Origin: Catellatospora sp. KI3
GTDB taxonomy: Bacteria > Actinomycetota > Actinomycetes > Mycobacteriales > Micromonosporaceae
Direction: 5' to 3'
Assembly: GCF_029948125.1 (NCBI RefSeq)
Contig: NZ_JASAMB010000018.1
Span: 62,001 to 126,000, forward strand
DNA: 64,000 nt
Notes under the pieces: model-generated
Told to the model about the DNA's origin: nothing
Databases searched by the model: none
What the model saw: the letters and a program-made list of their open reading frames with translations, nothing else
Made by a program: the position numbers and the translations under genes
In this document: positions 2,004-60,917 of the stretch, one piece after another
Layout: each line of letters begins with the position of its first letter
Position numbering within the stretch: the stretch's first letter is position 1

Positions 2004-2079
2004 CCCGCACCCCCGTTTCGAGATCACCTCCTGGCGACACTAGCGGGGGTACGGGTGGCTTTGGAGCCGTTTGCGCAGG

Positions 2080-3072
2080 TCAGATGGTTACCAGCATCTT
2101 GCCGGTGTTCTCGCCGCGCATCATGCCCAGGAACGCGGCCGGGGCGTTGTCCAGCCCGGCGACGACGGTCTCCTCGGCCTTGATCCTGCCCTCGGCGTAC
2201 CACGTGCCGACCTCGCGCAGGAAGTCCGGCATCCGGTCGTCGTGGTCGCTGACGATGAAGCCGCGCATGGTGATCCGCTTGCCGATCAGCGCCATCATGT
2301 TGTCCGGCCCCGGCACGGGCTCGTTGTAACCGGCGATCCCGCCGCACAGCGCGAAGCGCGCGAACGGCTTCGCGCGGGCGATCGCGGCGGTCAGGTGGTC
2401 GCCGCCCACGTTGTCGAAGTAGACGTCGACCCCGTCCGGCGCGGCCTGCTTGAGCTGCCCGGCCACGTCGCCGTCGCGGTAGTTGAACGCGGCGTCGAAG
2501 CCCAGCTCGTCCACCAGGTGCTTCACCTTGGCCGGGCTGCCCGCGCTGCCCACCACCCGGGCCGCGCCCTTCAGCTTCGCCAGCTGCCCGGCCAGGCTGC
2601 CCACGGCACCGGCGGCGCCGGAGACGAAGACGGTGTCACCGGGCTTCATCGCGGCGATGTCGAGCAGCCCGACGTACGCGGTGAGGCCGGGCATGCCCAG
2701 CACGCCCAGGAACGCGCTCGGCGGCGCGACCGGGTCGAGCCGGCGGAACCGCTTCGCGTCGGCGGTGACCAGGTCGCGCCAGCCGTACCCGTGCAGCACT
2801 AGGTCGCCCACGGCCAGGTCCGGCGAGTTCGACGCGACCACCTCGCCGACGGCCCCGCCGTCCAGCGCCCGCCCCACCTGGAACGGCGGCACGTACGACT
2901 TCGCGTCGTTCATCCGCCCCCGCATGTACGGGTCGACGGACATGACGGTGTTGCGTACCGTCACCTGCCCCTCGCCGGGCTCGGCCACCTCGACCTCGAC
3001 CAGCCGGAAGTTGTCCGCGGTGGGCACCCCGTCCGGCCGCGAGGCCAGCTGGATCTCACGTCCTACCGTCAC
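2080..3072 (-). CDS. NADP-dependent oxidoreductase, MDR superfamily (CurA/leukotriene reductase type)
   Basis: 330 residues, zinc-independent medium-chain reductase. MSVDPYMRGRM near residue 45 and the Rossmann fingerprint around residue 150 (VSGAAGAVGSLAGQLAK) mark the prostaglandin/curcumin reductase group, which reduces the C=C bond of alpha,beta-unsaturated carbonyls with NADPH. The GTG start at 3072 overlaps the ohrR stop in a GTGA arrangement, so it is translationally coupled to the peroxide-stress regulator. Detoxifying reactive aldehydes or enones made by lipid peroxidation fits this position but is inferred. Confidence 0.9.
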   Translation of the reverse strand: MTVGREIQLASRPDGVPTADNFRLVEVEVAEPGEGQVTVRNTVMSVDPYMRGRMNDAKSYVPPFQVGRALDGGAVGEVVASNSPDLAVGDLVLHGYGWRDLVTADAKRFRRLDPVAPPSAFLGVLGMPGLTAYVGLLDIAAMKPGDTVFVSGAAGAVGSLAGQLAKLKGAARVVGSAGSPAKVKHLVDELGFDAAFNYRDGDVAGQLKQAAPDGVDVYFDNVGGDHLTAAIARAKPFARFALCGGIAGYNEPVPGPDNMMALIGKRITMRGFIVSDHDDRMPDFLREVGTWYAEGRIKAEETVVAGLDNAPAAFLGMMRGENTGKMLVTI

Positions 3073-3982: not shown

Positions 3983-4034
3983 CCCACAACCAAACGTGAC
4001 CCGCCCGACCCGCCCTGCCCCGCCCCGCCCTTAT

Positions 4035-4099
4035 ATTGACACTGGCCTATCTACAACACGAATTCTCCGAAACCATCTTCTAGATAGGCCAGCGTCAAT
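4035..4099. repeat. Dispersed palindromic repeat, family B (copy 1)
   Basis: 18-nt arms at 4035-4052 and 4082-4099 (ATTGACACTGGCCTATCT and its complement with one mismatch) around a 29-nt spacer. A second copy is at 22663-22732 with the same arms and a related spacer. It lies between divergent genes and its right end reaches the start codon of the nuclease, so it is not a plain terminator. Confidence 0.8.
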
Positions 4100-6285: not shown

Positions 6286-6311
6286 CCACCCCACCACCCC
6301 CCGTCCCGAAG

Positions 6312-6363
6312 TAAGGAAGGGACCCTTCTTATCGCTATCCGTAGTGGAAGGGGCCCTTCTTAA
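6312..6363 (-). repeat. Dispersed palindromic repeat, family A (copy 1)
   Basis: 52-bp element made of two short palindromes around AAGGGACCCTT and AAGGGGCCCTT, separated by a conserved spacer (ATCGCTATCCGTAG). Its reverse complement matches the copy at 7711-7763 except for one base. The two copies face each other around the riboswitch-NlpC/P60 gene. No T-run. Confidence 0.9.
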
Positions 6364-6552
6364 CGCGATCGCGGGAGGCTGTCGGCGGGCGGGGCCGAGG
6401 TACGTCACTCAAGGTGATGTAACTTTCTCCGCATAACGTGTCCAGATCGGGCACTTCGGTCAATGCGCCCTTGGGCCGGGCCGGATCCCGGGCTACCGTT
6501 GCCGACACTGGGCCGGTTCCCAGCCGCTCACCCCCGGGCGGCACCGGACCAG

Positions 6553-6712
6553 CGCCGCCGAGTCGCACCGCGCCCCGGGACCTCTCCCGAGCGGGCGCCG
6601 CGAGCCGGGGACCCAGGTTTGCATCGGGGTGAATCGGCAGTCACTCGAAGTGACTGCGGTAGGGCGCCCTTCGCCCGAACCCGTCAGCTAACCCGGTAGG
6701 CGGCTGCGGAGA
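6553..6712 (+). ncRNA. c-di-AMP (ydaO-yuaA) riboswitch
   Basis: The region holds the class hallmarks in order: a GCCGAGTC-like 5' part, GAGCCGGGGA, then GGGGTGAATCGGC, a variable stem-loop (8-bp stem at 6637-6644/6650-6657) and the highly conserved GAACCCGTCAGCTAACC with GGTAGGCGG (about 6677-6703). It ends about 15 nt before the start of a secreted NlpC/P60 hydrolase, a well-known target of this riboswitch in actinobacteria. In known cases c-di-AMP binding turns expression off, linking wall hydrolysis to osmotic and potassium status. Exact ends are approximate. Confidence 0.9.
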
Positions 6713-6726
6713 AGGGCCGACAGCAC

Positions 6727-7704: not shown

Positions 7705-7710
7705 GCAGGG

Positions 7711-7763
7711 TTAAGAAGGGGCCCTTCCGCTACGGATAGCGATAAGAAGGGTCCCTTCCTTAC
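7711..7763 (+). repeat. Dispersed palindromic repeat, family A (copy 2)
   Basis: Near-perfect inverted copy of the 6312-6363 element (one difference in 52 bp), placed 6 nt after the NlpC/P60 stop codon. Two AAGGGNCCCTT palindromes flank the spacer CTACGGATAGCGAT. Confidence 0.9.
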
Positions 7764-9668: not shown

Positions 9669-9730
9669 GCCCCGACGCTACCGACTGCCCGCCACCCGTC
9701 CCCGGCCGCGCCCGCGACATGGGATGCGGC

Positions 9731-9790
9731 GCACTTTCGGGGAGGGCGCGTGAATTCACGCCACGATTCGTACAGATTCCCCGAAAGTGC
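9731..9790. repeat. Palindromic repeat, family C (copy 1)
   Basis: 13-bp perfect arms GCACTTTCGGGGA at 9731-9743 and its complement at 9778-9790. Inside is a second perfect palindrome, GCGTGAATTCACGC. It lies between divergent genes. Related copies at 18458, 21537 and 46469 share the TTTCGGGGA core. Confidence 0.75.
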
Positions 9791-9882
9791 AAGAACGCGC
9801 CTGCAATTGCGCACACGCTGTGCGACCGGTACGGACTGAGGCGTGTGGCAATGGTGCGACCCCATTTATCGGAGGCGCCGCC

Positions 9883-12547: not shown

Positions 12548-15018
12548 GCCTCGCAGATCTCCGGGTTCTCCAGGTTGAACTCGATCAGCCCCTTGGCCGC
12601 CAGCAGCGGCTGCGCCGACGCGACCGGCGCACCGCCGCTCGTCGCCGCGCCGCCTGCGGCGGCGTTAGGAAGGGACCCTTCTACTACGGATTCCGATAAG
12701 AAGGGTCCCTTCCTTACGCCGGTGGTGGTTTTGGCGATGGAGGTGGCGGGGCGGGAGCGCAGGTAGTAGGTGGTCTTCAGGCCGCGCCGCCAGGCGTAGG
12801 CGTACATCGAGGAGAGCTTGCCGATCTCCGGGGCGGCCATGAACAGGTTCAGCGACTGCGACTGGTCGATGTAGGGCGCCCGCGCGGCGGCCAGGTCGAT
12901 CAGGGCGCGCTGCGGCAGCTCCCACGCGGTGCGGAAGCGGGTGCGCAGCTCGGCCGGGATCTCCTCGATCCCGGCGATCGAGCCCTCGGCGGCCAGGATG
13001 CGCTCGCGCAGCGGCCCGGTCCACAGGCCCCGCGCCTTCAGCTCCTCCACCAGGTACCGGTTGACCTGGAGGAACTCGCCCGACAGGGTCTCGCGCTTGA
13101 ACACGTTGGCCACCGGCGGCTCGATGCACTCGGCGCAGCCGGCGATCGAGGCGATGGTGGCGGTCGGCGCGATCGCGATGAGCAGCGAGTTGCGCAGCCC
13201 GGTGCGGGCGACCTTCTCCCGCAGCGCCGCCCAGGCCCGCGGGTCGGTGTGCGCCGCGTCGGCCCAGTGGTCGGGGTGCAGCACCCCGCGCGCGGCCCTG
13301 GTGTCGGCGTAGGTCGGGTGCGCACCGAGCCGCACGGCCAGGTCGGCGCTGGTGTCGTACGCCGCGAGCGCGATCTGTTCGGCGATGCGGGTGGACAGGG
13401 CCAGCGCCTGCGGCGAGTCGAAGTCCAGGCCGAGGGTGAAGAACACGTCGGCCAGGCCCATCACGCCCAGGCCGATCGGCCGCCAGCGGCTGTTGGCCCC
13501 GGCCGCCTCGCCCGTCGGGTAGTAGGACAGGTCGATGGTGCGGTCCAGGACGCGGACCGCGACGGTGACGGTGTCGCGCAGGGCGGCCCAGTCGACGCCG
13601 TCCGGGCCGCAGTGGGCGGCCAGGTTGATCGAGCCGAGGTTGCACACCGCGGTCTCGTCGTCGCTGGTCACCTCCAGGATCTCGGTGCACAGGTTGGACA
13701 GGTGCACCGTGTTGCCGGGCACGGCGGTCTGGTTGCAGGTGCGGTTGGCGGCGTCCTTGAACGTCATCCAGCCGTTGCCGGTCTGGGCCAGGGTGCGCAT
13801 CATGCGGCCGTACAGCTCGCGGGCGGGCAGCGTACGCACGGCCAGGCCGGCCGCCTCGGCGGCGCGGTACGCCGCGTCGAACCCGTCGCCCCACAGGTCG
13901 ACCAGCTGCGGCACGTCCTTCGGGTCGAACAGCGACCAGCTCGCGTCGGCCTCGACCCGGCGCATGAACTCGTCCGGCACCCAGTTGGCCAGGTGCAGGT
14001 TGTGGGTGCGGCGGCTCTCGTCGCCGGTGGAGTCGCGCAGCTGCAGGAAGTCGTCCAGGTCGGCGTGCCAGGTCTCCAGGTAGACGCAGGCCGCGCCCTT
14101 GCGGCGGCCGCCCTGGTTGACCGCGGCGACGCTGGCGTCCAGCGTGCGCAGCCACGGCACGATGCCGTTGGACAGGCCGTTGGTGCCCCGGATGAGCGAG
14201 CCGCGGGAGCGGATGCGCGACCACGCCACCCCGATGCCCCCGGCGTACTTCGACAGCCGGGCGATCTGGCCGTAGCGCTCGTAGATCGACTCCAGCTCGT
14301 CGCGGGGCGAGTCGAGCAGGAAGCAGCTGCTCAGCTGCGGGCGCCGGGCCCCGGCGTTGAACAGGGTCGGCGAGCTGGGCAGGTAGGCCAGGCGGCTGAG
14401 GATGGCGTACAGCCGGGCGACCTCGGCGACGCTGCCGGGCAGGCGCAGCCCGGCGGTGCTGGCGGAGCCGACCTCGCCCATCAGGCCGCAGGCCACGCGC
14501 AGCAGGAAGTGCTGCGGGGTCTCCAGCACCCGCCGGGTCACCGGGTGGCGCAGCAGGTATCGGTCGTAGACGGTGCGCAGGCCGAAGTACTCGAAGCGGT
14601 CGTCGGCGGCCGGGTCGACCAGCTCGGCCAGCTCGGCGGAGTTGACCGCGACGAACGCGGCCAGGTCGTCGGCGAGCAGGCCCGCCTCGTGCCCGGCCCG
14701 GACCGAGTCGGCGAAGTCGCGTACGCCCTGGGTCGCGGCCTCGTCGGCGATGTGCGCCGCGAGCAGGCGCGCGGCCAGTCTGCTGTACGACGGCTCCCGC
14801 ACCACCAGCGCCGCGGCGGTCTCGATGGCGCGCAGCCGCAGGTCGGCCTCGGTGGCACCGGGCCACACCCCGGCGAGCACGGGCGCCAGCACCGTGTCGG
14901 GGTCCAGGTCGGGCAGGCCCTGCGCCGCCGCCCCGAGCTGCTGTGCGAGTCTGTCCGCCGGTGCGGCGTCCCAGGTCGTCGTGCCGGTCGGCGTACCGGC
15001 CATAATGGTGCTGGTCAA
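12538..15018 (-). CDS. nrdA: Class Ia ribonucleotide reductase, alpha subunit, with in-frame palindrome insertion
   Basis: 826 residues. Catalytic landmarks are present: the SSC cysteine, NLCTE with the thiyl Cys and Glu, VCNLGSIN with the redox partner Cys, the Tyr dyad in KTTYYLRSRPAT, and a C-terminal CEAC pair that re-reduces the active site. Between the Tyr dyad and the CEAC tail, about residues 768-785 (VRKGPFLSESVVEGSLPN) are encoded by a family A palindrome. The insertion keeps the frame and lies in the mobile linker. Start: TTG 15018 has GAGGGG at good distance; ATG 15003 is the alternative. A cobalamin riboswitch and NrdR boxes precede it, as known for the Streptomyces nrdABS operon. 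Confidence 0.95.
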   Translation of the reverse strand: MTSTIMAGTPTGTTTWDAAPADRLAQQLGAAAQGLPDLDPDTVLAPVLAGVWPGATEADLRLRAIETAAALVVREPSYSRLAARLLAAHIADEAATQGVRDFADSVRAGHEAGLLADDLAAFVAVNSAELAELVDPAADDRFEYFGLRTVYDRYLLRHPVTRRVLETPQHFLLRVACGLMGEVGSASTAGLRLPGSVAEVARLYAILSRLAYLPSSPTLFNAGARRPQLSSCFLLDSPRDELESIYERYGQIARLSKYAGGIGVAWSRIRSRGSLIRGTNGLSNGIVPWLRTLDASVAAVNQGGRRKGAACVYLETWHADLDDFLQLRDSTGDESRRTHNLHLANWVPDEFMRRVEADASWSLFDPKDVPQLVDLWGDGFDAAYRAAEAAGLAVRTLPARELYGRMMRTLAQTGNGWMTFKDAANRTCNQTAVPGNTVHLSNLCTEILEVTSDDETAVCNLGSINLAAHCGPDGVDWAALRDTVTVAVRVLDRTIDLSYYPTGEAAGANSRWRPIGLGVMGLADVFFTLGLDFDSPQALALSTRIAEQIALAAYDTSADLAVRLGAHPTYADTRAARGVLHPDHWADAAHTDPRAWAALREKVARTGLRNSLLIAIAPTATIASIAGCAECIEPPVANVFKRETLSGEFLQVNRYLVEELKARGLWTGPLRERILAAEGSIAGIEEIPAELRTRFRTAWELPQRALIDLAAARAPYIDQSQSLNLFMAAPEIGKLSSMYAYAWRRGLKTTYYLRSRPATSIAKTTTGVRKGPFLSESVVEGSLPNAAAGGAATSGGAPVASAQPLLAAKGLIEFNLENPEICEACQ
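12665..12717 (+). repeat. Family A palindromic repeat inside nrdA (copy 3)
   Basis: About 53 bp with arms TAGGAAGGGACCCTTCT and its complement around a spacer close to CTACGGATTCCGATA. It is homologous to the intergenic copies and read through by nrdA as about 18 sense codons. Confidence 0.92.
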
Positions 15019-15159: not shown

Positions 15160-15395
15160 CTGGCAGGTCTTCGGACTCGTGGGCACGGTCGGTCGACCCG
15201 GCTTCGCGTGCCGGGTCTGGTCGACCCCCTAACCCGCCGCTTCCCGGGCCGGCCGGCCCAGTGCTGCTCCGCGAGGTCGCGTCCTCGCGGGGCGGGTTCG
15301 TTCCCACTCACCGCTGCGGGGCAGTCCCGGAGTCGCACCGGGTTCCCTGTTGTCGCGGCAGCCTCGCGGAGGCCCGGCACAGGCCGGACCGTCGC
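15160..15395 (-). ncRNA. Cobalamin (B12) riboswitch of nrdAB
   Basis: On the minus strand the leader has the conserved core GGGAAcCCGGTGCGACTCC, then GACTGCCCCGCAGCGGTGAG with TGGGAAC, the GCACTGG box, and the 3' closing segment GAGTCCGAAGACCTGCCA (ending at 15160-15178). These are diagnostic of adenosylcobalamin riboswitches. In Streptomyces a B12 riboswitch represses the class Ia nrdABS operon when the B12-dependent class II enzyme can be used, so the same logic is expected here. Boundaries are approximate. Confidence 0.93.
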
Positions 15396-18437: not shown

Positions 18438-18457
18438 CCGGCGCGCCGATGCAGGGT

Positions 18458-18517
18458 GCAGTTTCGGGGAAAGTGCACGAATCTTGCGCGCCTTTCGCGC
18501 ACTTTCCCCGAAACTGC
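18458..18517. repeat. Palindromic repeat, family C (copy 2)
   Basis: Perfect 19-bp arms (GCAGTTTCGGGGAAAGTGC at 18458-18476, complement at 18499-18517) between the converging amidase and SARP genes. It may serve as a bidirectional terminator, although no T-run exists. Confidence 0.8.
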
Positions 18518-18532
18518 CGCTACCCCACCGGG

Positions 18533-21523: not shown

Positions 21524-21536
21524 CCGGCTCCTTTCG

Positions 21537-21598
21537 TGCAGTTTCGGGGAAACTGCGCGAATAGCGGGCTTCAGACCAGCACTTTCCCCGAAACTGCA
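21537..21598. repeat. Palindromic repeat, family C (copy 3)
   Basis: Perfect 16-bp arms TGCAGTTTCGGGGAAA at 21537-21552 and its complement at 21583-21598, beginning 13 nt after the M23 stop codon. It directly abuts a second, unrelated hairpin. Confidence 0.8.
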
Positions 21599-21637
21599 GC
21601 CGTCTCGTCCCAGGGGGTGTCCCGGGGCGAGACGGCT
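21598..21637 (+). terminator. Hairpin terminator downstream of the M23 gene
   Basis: Perfect 10-bp stem AGCCGTCTCG (21598-21607) with 21628-21637, a 20-nt loop, then TGTC. Together with the preceding palindrome it makes a tandem hairpin stop. Confidence 0.6.
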
Positions 21638-22601: not shown

Positions 22602-22662
22602 CCCTCCCCGTCCGACCGTCGCAGCCGCCCATCCCGTCCGCCCCGCCCCGGCCCCCGCCTTT

Positions 22663-22732
22663 ACATAAACGCTGGCCTATCCAGAGGAGTGATTTGCCCG
22701 AACCCGTCCTCTAGATAGGCCAGCGTTTATGT
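22663..22732. repeat. Dispersed palindromic repeat, family B (copy 2)
   Basis: Perfect 18-bp arms ACATAAACGCTGGCCTAT (22663-22680) with 22715-22732, and a 34-nt spacer of which 18 of the last 24 bases match the spacer of copy 1. Located 61 nt after the prenyl synthase gene. Confidence 0.8.
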
Positions 22733-22813
22733 GAGGGCGGGGTCAGGAGGGTGTCGGGTGGCTGTTGGGGGGTGCTGGGGGGTGTGGGAGGGGTGCTTCG
22801 CGCCCGCGAACGG

Positions 22814-22916: not shown

Positions 22917-22980
22917 GAAGGCCCGCGCCAGCTGGATCACCGGCGCGTTTCGCATTCTCCGACGCCCTGGAGCAGGACGT

Positions 22981-23030
22981 TGGGAAGGGCCCCTTCCTGT
23001 ACGCAGAGCGGCGAGAAGGGGCCCTTCCTT
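22981..23030 (+). repeat. Dispersed palindromic repeat, family A, subtype 2 (copy 4)
   Basis: GGGAAGGGCCCCTTCC and GAGAAGGGGCCCTTCCTT flank the spacer TGTACGCAGAGCGGC. The spacer matches the 42662 copy, not the GGATAGCGAT type, so two subtypes exist. It lies just past the 3' end of the ThuA-dehydrogenase gene. Confidence 0.85.
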
Positions 23031-23038
23031 GCTCACGG

Positions 23039-40588: not shown

Positions 40589-40590
40589 GG

Positions 40591-40640
40591 TAAGGAAGGG
40601 ACCCTTCTTATCGCATTCCGTAGCGGAAGGGCCCCTTCCC
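40591..40640 (-). repeat. Dispersed palindromic repeat, family A (copy 5)
   Basis: Same orientation as the 6312 copy: TAAGGAAGGGACCCTTCTT, spacer ATCGCATTCCGTAGC, then GGAAGGGCCCCTTCC. Located 2 nt downstream of the M20 peptidase stop. Confidence 0.9.
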
Positions 40641-40785
40641 AACTCCCCTCCACCACCTGGCGGCGCGCCATCCGTCCAATTTGGCAACGGTCGGCGCGTT
40701 GTGGCGGGTCGCGGGGGTGACCGCGGTTACGCTCGCGCCGGTCGCGGCATGCGCGGCCGGGTCGCGAGCGAGAGGGCATGGCCGC

Positions 40786-42626: not shown

Positions 42627-42661
42627 GTCCGCCCCGGCCCGCCGCCTTCGGGCCGCCGGGT

Positions 42662-42712
42662 GAAGAAGGGCCCCTTCTACGTCGCAGAGCGATGAGAAGG
42701 GGCCCTTCCTTC
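42662..42712 (+). repeat. Dispersed palindromic repeat, family A, subtype 2 (copy 6)
   Basis: GAAGAAGGGCCCCTTC and GAGAAGGGGCCCTTCCTT around the spacer TACGTCGCAGAGCGAT. It lies between the converging nitroreductase and monooxygenase genes. Confidence 0.9.
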
Positions 42713-42716
42713 TGTT

Positions 42717-60109: not shown

Positions 60110-60538
60110 GTGGCACAGGATCTGATGATCAGCGAGCATGTCGTCATACCCGGTAGCGAGCTGCGGGAACGGTTCTCGCGTAGCTCCGGGCCGGGCGGGC
60201 AGGGGGTCAACACGGCCGACAGCCGGGTGGAGCTCTCCTATGATGTGGAGCGCTCCCACGCGCTGTCGGAGCCGCAGCGCCTGCGCGCGCTGGCGCAGCT
60301 GGCCAACCGGCTCGTCGACGGCGTGATCACCATCGCCGCCAGCGAGCACCGGGCCCAGCTCGCCAACCGCGAAGCCGCCCGCGAGCGGCTGGCCGCCCTG
60401 CTGCGCGCCGCCATCGCCCCGCCCCCGGCCCCGCGCCGCCCGACCAAGATGAGCAAGGGCGCGCACGCACGCCGCCTGCAATCCAAGCGCCACCGCTCCC
60501 TGACCAAGCAATCCCGCCGCACCCCACCCGGCGACTGA
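60110..60538 (+). CDS. arfB: Alternative ribosome-rescue factor ArfB (GGQ peptidyl-tRNA hydrolase)
   Basis: 142 residues. The release-factor motif SSGPGGQGVNTADSRVEL lies near residues 26-43; its GGQ hydrolyses peptidyl-tRNA. The tail is strongly basic (KMSKGAHARRLQSKRHRSLTKQSRR), as in ArfB, where it enters the empty mRNA channel of stalled ribosomes. GTG 60110 is favoured by GAGG 7 nt upstream. A second CebR-like box lies inside the gene at about 60245-60257. Confidence 0.92.
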   Translation: MAQDLMISEHVVIPGSELRERFSRSSGPGGQGVNTADSRVELSYDVERSHALSEPQRLRALAQLANRLVDGVITIAASEHRAQLANREAARERLAALLRAAIAPPPAPRRPTKMSKGAHARRLQSKRHRSLTKQSRRTPPGD

Positions 60539-60546
60539 CCCGGGAC

Positions 60547-60635
60547 GCCGGGGGCGCCGGGGGCGCCGGGGGCGCCGGGGGCGCCGGGGGCGCCGGGGGC
60601 GCCGGGGGCGCCGGGGGCGCCGGGGGCGCCGGGGG
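60547..60635. repeat. 9-bp tandem repeat, about 9.9 units
   Basis: GCCGGGGGC repeated nine times exactly plus a partial tenth unit, immediately after arfB. The pure array is a likely length-variable locus. Confidence 0.95.
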
Positions 60636-60917
60636 ATGATCGCTGATCGGGGTCGGAATGTGTGCTTGAGGCGCGGGTTTTGACCGGGGACGCCGATCAC
60701 CGTTGGGAGATCGGCCGGTGCGGTCAGAATGCGGGGAAACGGCCGGAGGCGATGCAGATGAGTGACCGCAGACAGTGATCTTCGAGGCCGTTGTCCCGGG
60801 ATGCGGGACAGCCGACCGGCATCGATAGTTGTGACTGCACCTGGACTGTCCAAAGACGGCGATCTTGATGGTCGGCGCGGAAGGGCGGGGACGGGGGCGG
60901 CGCGCGCCCGGGGGTGG
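60636..60917. other. Non-coding region with degenerate family D units
   Basis: No gene supported. Contains scattered GATCGC/GATCACC and TGCGGTCAGAA or TGACCGCAGA units like those at 34.9 and 51.7 kb. An open minus-strand frame here is only the echo of the 9-bp repeat (Arg-Arg-Pro). Confidence 0.6.

Follow-up and report, generated by a model that had tools for sequence, protein, structure and literature searches.

How does a short palindromic repeat that otherwise lies mostly between genes come to be read as part of an enzyme? The question is raised by 64,000 nucleotides (nt) of DNA from the soil actinobacterium Catellatospora sp. KI3 (contig NZ_JASAMB010000018.1, positions 62,001 to 126,000), referred to here as the window, in which a 54-nt palindromic element with arms of type A (GGGACCC...GGGTCCC) lies within nrdA, the gene for the alpha subunit of ribonucleoside-diphosphate reductase (Table 1). 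Its presence there, in frame as 18 codons, is confirmed. In the order of the protein, the tyrosine pair Y751-Y752 is followed by the element (residues 768-785) and then by the cysteines C822-x-x-C825 of the CEAC tail, and 21 of the 27 mirror positions of the palindrome are paired. An earlier note on this DNA, made from the sequence alone, had described a mostly intergenic palindrome family that is in frame in the NrdA linker between the tyrosine pair and the CEAC tail at 12665..12717; this description holds, with the residue numbers and the position being right to one base (12664-12717). Two of the six reading frames of the 54 nt are without stops, namely the frame used and one on the opposite strand, and the peptide KGPFLSESVVEGSLPN would be expected in NrdA if the element is translated.

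We regard it as highly probable that the nrdA feature is a copy of a mostly intergenic element, resembling REPINs and miniature inverted-repeat transposable elements (MITEs), that is tolerated in a disordered linker. The copy would have reached nrdA by insertion and would survive there because the redox-tail linker is presumably disordered and accepts an 18-residue peptide, the element being translated within NrdA with little effect on catalysis. Selection would purge insertions elsewhere in NrdA, which would explain why the survivors cluster at one spot of the protein. Resident copies would then be renewed to the current subtype of their genome, either through rewriting in place, in the manner of gene conversion, or because a lost copy is replaced by a new insertion at that spot; neither route is strongly favoured, and the data do not separate them.

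The repeat family and its position relative to genes

The genome of the window (G000; 8.2 Mb, 96 contigs) contains 164 exact double-arm copies, as opposed to none of the reversed-pattern control, and one of its copies (G000:C12:129118-129171) agrees with that of nrdA over 54/54 nt, so that the copy number is far beyond chance. A looser type A pattern finds 176 copies, and the family comes to about 170 in total, decayed copies escaping such pattern searches. Five copies besides that of nrdA lie in the window. The unit derived from 44 aligned copies, GTAAGG-AAGGGnCCCTT-C-TTATCG..CCGTAG..G-AAGGGnCCCTT-C-Y-Y-AAC, consists of two AAGG-nnn-CCTT arms flanking a 20-nt core, 54 nt in all, with terminal inverted repeats at the consensus ends GTAAGG and C-Y-Y-AAC; a long form measures about 87 nt. 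The only target signal in these 44 copies consists of weakly G-rich bases just before the element, with no further consensus seen. The 20 bases before the 44 like-oriented copies are C-rich and the 20 bases after them G-rich, and small hairpins such as CGCCGGAGGCG are frequent in the right flanks of G000 copies. No known RNA family was found at the element, only sub-threshold look-alikes of microRNAs.

The coding context was scored with a home-made codon model, trained on 31 long open reading frames (ORFs) of the window, for 71 distinct copies of the approximately 170 in G000, some of which were picked for their likeness to the nrdA copy. Three are in frame in coding sequence, and the other 68 have one coding flank (35), two coding flanks that are out of frame with each other (19) or none (14). 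The same model assigns in-frame coding to 2024 of 3000 positions drawn at random from the window's contig; the family thus strongly avoids genes, and the in-frame copies look like survivors. The three lie in nrdA, in fdhD and in a gene referred to here as gene X, whose 475-residue product has no Pfam match at 0.001 and no NCBIfam match. Among 48 copies at loci of other genomes of the genus, picked by the type B or C pattern described below, four are in frame: in gene X of G003, in fdhD of G008, in fdhD of G006, where the wrong strand was read, and in a GT87 glycosyltransferase gene of G005 (PF09594; locus L273, - strand, 2024-3043), which has type A arms. The GT87 element sits between segments that, by eye, appear to span the membrane. 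Locus L167 was rejected as a separate in-frame case because its position coincides in part with the fdhD match of G006 and it resembles that copy read on the wrong strand, and open frames at C45, C18 and C67, obtained with tblastn, were rejected because they have no in-frame coding score. None of 26 more copies in the syntenic DNA of G005 (7), G009 (2), G003 (8) and G008 (9) scored in frame; as the nrdA copy of G003 is one of them, the model misses real cases. In nrdA, fdhD, gene X and the GT87 gene the elements share one orientation and one frame (xRKG..). Related peptides were looked for in other proteins, as the earlier note had suggested, and are found in the FdhD, gene X and GT87 proteins.

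Distribution within Catellatospora

The genus set comprises eleven Catellatospora genomes. In the tree of NrdA cores, G000, G005 and G009 form one clade, the order among them not being settled, and the other eight form clade II, in which G002 and G008 are sisters. The NrdA element is present in eight genomes (G000, G005, G001, G003, G004, G006, G007 and G010), with the frame kept in all eight, and is missing in G009, G002 and G008. A unique event in the window's genome is thereby rejected, and the element also extends to some NrdAs of Micromonospora and Plantactinospora. Aligned with the NrdA of G009, a close relative from the same clade without the element, that of G000 shows a clean gap (tails of 60 vs 77 residues), as had been anticipated. 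The NrdAs of G002 and G008 have VRK, written in other codons (GTG CGC AAG), which may be a scar or native.

An assembly or sequencing artefact, by which the earlier note would have considered its proposal refuted, is hardly credible. High-identity repeats can mislead assembly, and G000 is a draft genome of 96 contigs; however, the element is carried in frame by eight assemblies with differing sequences, and two of these genomes were also found as named records (C. vulcania and C. coxensis).

The FdhD element is likewise present in 8 of the 11 genomes and missing in G001, G004 and G009. Gene X occurs in ten; its element is short in G000, G005, G003, G007 and G002, long in G008, reduced to remnants in G010 and G006 and absent from G009 (G004 lies outside this reading). 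Long and short forms alternate between the sisters G002 and G008 in both genes; the long form, as read in fdhD for G002 and in gene X for G008, comprises 29 codons and exceeds the short form by 33 nt. A perfect 19-bp palindrome unlike the family lies in frame at about the same linker of gene X in G009 (L242); it was discarded as a second repeat family because its pattern occurs once in the 11 genomes.

NrdA and FdhD beyond the genus

Protein searches covered the best 120 of 7999 matches in each of two NrdA searches and the best 120 of 8000 for FdhD. The peptide pattern occurs in 11 of the 211 NrdA protein clusters obtained in this way, including that of the window, and element-like DNA was found in the NrdA tail at 12 of 110 loci read: ten Catellatospora rows, two of them duplicating genomes already counted, together with Plantactinospora alkalitolerans (L113) and Micromonospora solifontis (L114). 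Outside Catellatospora, the DNA of the element was read for L113 and L114, and the P-numbered NrdAs were judged on the peptide. Among FdhD linkers, 16 of 112 parsed contain the element, and all carriers with an organism name are Catellatospora. Micromonospora NrdA tails without the element (P0125-P0152) often hold ALLTLSVGESD, which is similar to the right half of the element peptide and, judged by this likeness, might be an element remnant.

In a FastTree phylogeny of 182 chosen NrdA cores, in which 55 of 170 forks are weak, the 22 carriers belong to Catellatospora, to a clade made up of Micromonospora and Plantactinospora siamensis or, for L113, to a separate NrdA group. Their pattern corresponds to at least 8 changes, or to 27 losses if the element was gained once. 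The 22 rows are not 22 independent cases, because L114 and P0143 are identical in the tree; they include L119, a hand-added RRG variant whose DNA has no match to the element pattern. Each of the 22 rows has a TT/AT pair with the peptide starting 1-5 residues behind it, and 15 rows share the codon at which it starts.

Such a distribution could also result from recurrent, homing-like insertion, in which the linkers of NrdA, FdhD and gene X hold a target that is hit repeatedly and the copies of the clades are independent, each being of the subtype then active. This is a serious possibility that in our view falls somewhat short of probable. It agrees with the scattering of carriers over three or more distinct parts of the NrdA tree together with element-free relatives, with the shared codon in 15/22 rows, with junctions that differ between clades by small codon offsets (TTTG-V, TTG-A, TT-V), with orthologous intergenic places that are also filled by differing subtypes or lengths, and with the exact pair of distant copies in G000, which suggests recent copying. 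However, the weakly G-rich bases before the element constitute the whole target consensus of the 44 copies, and homing requires that the same place was hit twice in one genus, in three genes and in one orientation.

Subtypes and turnover at occupied sites

Three subtypes of arms can be distinguished. Type A (GGGnCCC) occurs 176 times in G000, 80 times in G005, once in G004 and not in the other eight genomes; type B (GGTGCCC in both arms on one strand; strands summed) is absent from G000 and G009, occurs once in G005 and 8-52 times elsewhere; type C (GGGCACC...GGTGCCC) occurs once in G000, 46 times in G005, 34 times in G009 and 86-200 times elsewhere, so that it is about 4-11 times commoner than type B in clade II genomes. 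The in-frame copies are of type A in G000 and G005 and have GGGCACC arms in clade II, and since their subtype thereby follows the common subtype of each genome, they appear either to have been overwritten where they stood or to have been inserted anew at those sites. All 12 short in-frame copies of clade II that were read (6 in nrdA, 3 in gene X, 3 in fdhD) have a type B right arm, as do two of four long in-frame copies, the remaining two having GGGCGCC and GGTGCCC. In the long form, the left arm is followed by GTCGGCTCGCGTCAGCGAGACGAGCAG.., and 53 exact matches to the long-form core are listed in 9 of the 11 genomes, some of them outside elements. At L334 and L344 this core (CGTCGGCTCGCGTCAGCGnGACGA) is found outside element arms, apparently upstream of a gene.

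To describe the sites themselves, 14 copies on the window's contig (185 kb) were compared with syntenic DNA. Where the flanks are collinear, an element lies in the gap, loose matches included, at 8/12 sites in G005, 2/12 in G009, 2/8 in G003 and 1/5 in G008, and the counts in the reverse direction are 5/6, 0/1, 2/4 and 1/5, respectively. The nrdA site is one of these shared sites and belongs to the two shared with G003. Subtype or length often differs at shared sites: the site G000:C10:128220 is of type A in G000 and G005 and of type C in G003 and G008, with well-matching downstream flanks, and the gaps at contig sites 47928 and 30760 hold the long form in G005 and G009, respectively. Occupied places are kept or refilled while their sequence changes.

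A further explanation assumes that each gene received its element once, in an old insertion predating the split of the genus, and that concerted rewriting in place and losses from nrdA in G009 and in G002 and G008 followed; we consider it plausible without being the probable course of events. Matching places of NrdA, FdhD and gene X are filled in both clades, the in-frame subtype agrees with the genome, the VRK of G002 and G008 could be a scar, and the arms GGGCCCC and GGGCACC are one base apart. On the other hand, 54 nt is, as a matter of general knowledge, short for homologous gene conversion, the ten unchanged arm codons described below reach only p = 0.047, and intergenic sites turn over, 2 of the 8 alignable sites of the window's contig, nrdA included, being shared with G003.

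A bolder proposal, which we put forward tentatively and with some doubt, is that an element-directed copying process, other than RAYT in this genome, converts the 54-nt palindromes in place, protein-coding copies included, to a single subtype within each genome, and that disordered linkers, chiefly the NrdA redox tail, serve as permanent docking sites that are filled anew in different genera. If this is true, the same enzyme tails are edited again and again by a family of selfish DNA.

Conservation of the element and functional alternatives

Within the nrdA elements of clade II, the ten arm codons are all unchanged, including silent positions (p = 0.047 compared with core rates), which gives a weak hint that the DNA rather than the peptide is kept. 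The remaining eight element codons all vary among clade II species, with residue changes in 4/8. A functional peptide, acting in docking or as a redox relay, with the palindrome as a by-product of protein selection, is very unlikely. It would fit the occurrence of RKG..EG-like peptides in NrdAs of several genera and the conservation of the element, which is nearly that of the NrdA core. However, the same peptide is found in the unrelated FdhD, gene X and GT87 proteins, it is missing in 3 of the 11 congeners and in most of the 211 NrdA clusters (best 120 of 7999 per search), 68 of the 71 copies examined are not in frame, and half of the eight variable codons of clade II alter the residue.

The predicted hairpins of G000 are strong in nrdA (-34.8 kcal/mol) and gene X (-36.0), compared with -29.5 for extragenic type A copies (n=68); a weak hairpin is therefore no general property of in-frame copies. 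The medians are -23.1 for type B (n=28) and -34.6 for type C (n=25), and the hairpins of in-frame clade II copies do not fall below those of other type B copies in strength. A hairpin with a function in the nrdA-nrdB mRNA, contributing to coupling, stability or termination and lying in frame by chance, could be read from the strong predicted fold and from its position 117 nt upstream of the nrdB start. We consider it very improbable: the strength is not kept, falling to -24.2 in G005 and to between -18.5 and -29.3 in six clade II nrdA copies, for which reason a conserved hairpin was rejected, the centre bases of the arms pair in just 25 of 59 type A copies, and the element is missing in three congeners.

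Linker disorder and role of the enzyme

The tolerated insertion remains the preferred explanation. In an AlphaFold2 model of NrdA (mean predicted local distance difference test, pLDDT, 69.9; predicted template modelling score 0.74), residues 752-826 have a pLDDT below 50, in agreement with the flexible linker assumed earlier. Tuning of the tail reach, which had been suggested as an alternative to mere tolerance, is unsupported; NrdA tails without the element reach 80-82 residues, so that tail length alone carries no signal.

Several points weigh against a tolerated insertion. The model is weak evidence for a disordered tail, because parts of the core are also below a pLDDT of 50. Among six clade II species the identity of the element (0.926) is close to that of the core (0.946) and far above that of the adjoining linker (0.663), a conservation that appears to exceed the need of a purely neutral passenger. 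The shared codon of 15/22 carrier rows is more exact than tolerance alone requires, and a position so exact is a hint of a chosen target or of shared ancestry. Target duplications were not recognised, and none is obvious at the nrdA junction compared with G009, nrdA being the junction examined. Finally, Y1_Tnp, the RAYT domain, was not found in G000, other transposases not having been searched for, and was therefore rejected as the mover there; it also has no match in G002, G005, G007 and G009, with matches in 6 of the 11 genomes of the genus.

The earlier note regarded NrdA as an essential protein, which is doubtful. The domains of NrdA and NrdB, the tyrosine pair, the C-terminal cysteine pair and the riboswitch are all present, as in an NrdAB system with a B12 riboswitch, and from general knowledge together with the Streptomyces paper cited below we take the system to be of class Ia. 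A B12-dependent NrdJ is encoded elsewhere in the genome (NF005122 above cut-off), and the window's NrdA was rejected as the sole, essential reductase for this reason. For Streptomyces, passages of the cited paper suggest that NrdAB acts when NrdJ is inactive (PMC4991794). By analogy, with a cobalamin riboswitch upstream and NrdJ elsewhere, the window's NrdAB is probably a backup reductase, a role that may ease the survival of insertions.

Comparison with known palindromic elements

By analogy, the nearest parallel in behaviour is the Rickettsia palindromic element (RPE), and in structure the REPIN. In the cited passages, RPEs are palindromes in frame in unrelated genes, with a recurring peptide and typically in non-structured segments (PMC10969869, PMC2996958). 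The present family shares with them its many copies and a common peptide in several unrelated genes, but not the large share within genes: nearly half of the RPE copies are in frame according to the review, by whose description the comparison is made, as opposed to 3/71 here. RPEs are also longer (about 150 nt vs 54 nt, or about 87 nt for the long form), and the host here has a large GC-rich genome. The earlier note was right in naming Rickettsia for in-frame palindromes but too narrow in stopping there, since Wolbachia and Methanocaldococcus jannaschii are named as well in the passage concerned (PMC2996958). For Micromonosporaceae, no title on in-frame palindromes is among the matches listed from the open-licence literature.

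REPINs and REPs with RAYT are described in the relevant passage as two short palindromic units around a spacer, hairpin-capable, of high copy number and mostly extragenic (PMC8049555), and the family resembles them in these respects; in contrast, G000 has no Y1_Tnp match and some copies lie within proteins. A GTAG or CGTC tag at one end is a further reported mark of the REPIN/RAYT system (PMC3733652). With MITEs the family shares its shortness, inverted repeats and long and short forms. However, neither a target duplication nor a parent insertion sequence was identified here, the transposase search being confined to Y1_Tnp, and the arms are GC-rich, whereas MITEs are typically AT-rich according to the passage cited (PMC10969869). 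Palindromic amphipathic repeats (PARCEL) are likewise coding palindromes in flux within and between genomes, but as described in the cited passage they are made up of domains repeated in tracts, mainly in proteins of the membrane or surface (PMC2996958), unlike the single unit in enzyme linkers found here. The nrdABS operon of Streptomyces corresponds, in the part of the paper concerned, to the present locus in that a B12 riboswitch accompanies NrdAB and a class II NrdJ is also present (PMC4991794), and differs in that the tail linker here carries a repeat.

Features of the window

Table 1. Position and evidence of the nrdA element, the neighbouring genes and the further family copies in the window.
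Feature	Position	Strand	Evidence and remarks
54-nt palindromic element in nrdA, type A	12664..12717	-	in frame; residues 768-785 = VRKGPFLSESVVEGSLPN
nrdA, ribonucleoside-diphosphate reductase alpha subunit, 826 aa	12541..15018, stop codon 12538-12540	-	PF02867 E 1.2e-184, PF00317, TIGR02506 above cut-off
nrdB, beta subunit, 338 aa	11531..12547	-	PF00268 E 5.4e-82; ORF list; overlaps nrdA end
Cobalamin riboswitch upstream of nrdA	15162..15374	-	RF00174, 48.8 bits, cut-off 31.5
Family copy, not in frame in gene	6311..6364	.	pattern and codon model
Family copy, not in frame	7710..7763	.	present in G005 at orthologous place
Family copy, not in frame	22979..23032	.	matching gap: type A in G005, type C in G009; reverse search from G009 to G000 gave no collinear flanks
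Family copy, not in frame	40590..40643	.	matching G005 gap (contig site 102590) holds long form
Family copy, not in frame	42660..42713	.	common to G000 and G005

Apart from these features, the window contains a riboswitch for cyclic di-AMP (6586-6718, 61 bits), three copies of a second palindromic family (GTGCAGTTTCGGGGAAA...TTTCCCCGAAACTGC; 9729-9793, 18456-18520 and 21536-21600), inverted repeats around TAGGCCAGCGTTTATGT at 4023-4065 and 22638-22757 that are partly common to both places, and a nine-base tandem repeat GCCGGGGGC of about ten units (60530-60646).

Significance

In the cited passages, coding palindromes are described for Rickettsia, Wolbachia and one archaeon, and the same kind of event is found here in large GC-rich genomes. 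The Catellatospora family offers relatives with and without the element, copies of several subtypes and lengths and the repeated use of one enzyme linker. This makes the entry of short selfish DNA into proteins, its renewal in place and its effect on an enzyme of well-known mechanism accessible to testing, and it illustrates a way in which selfish repeats may become part of proteins.

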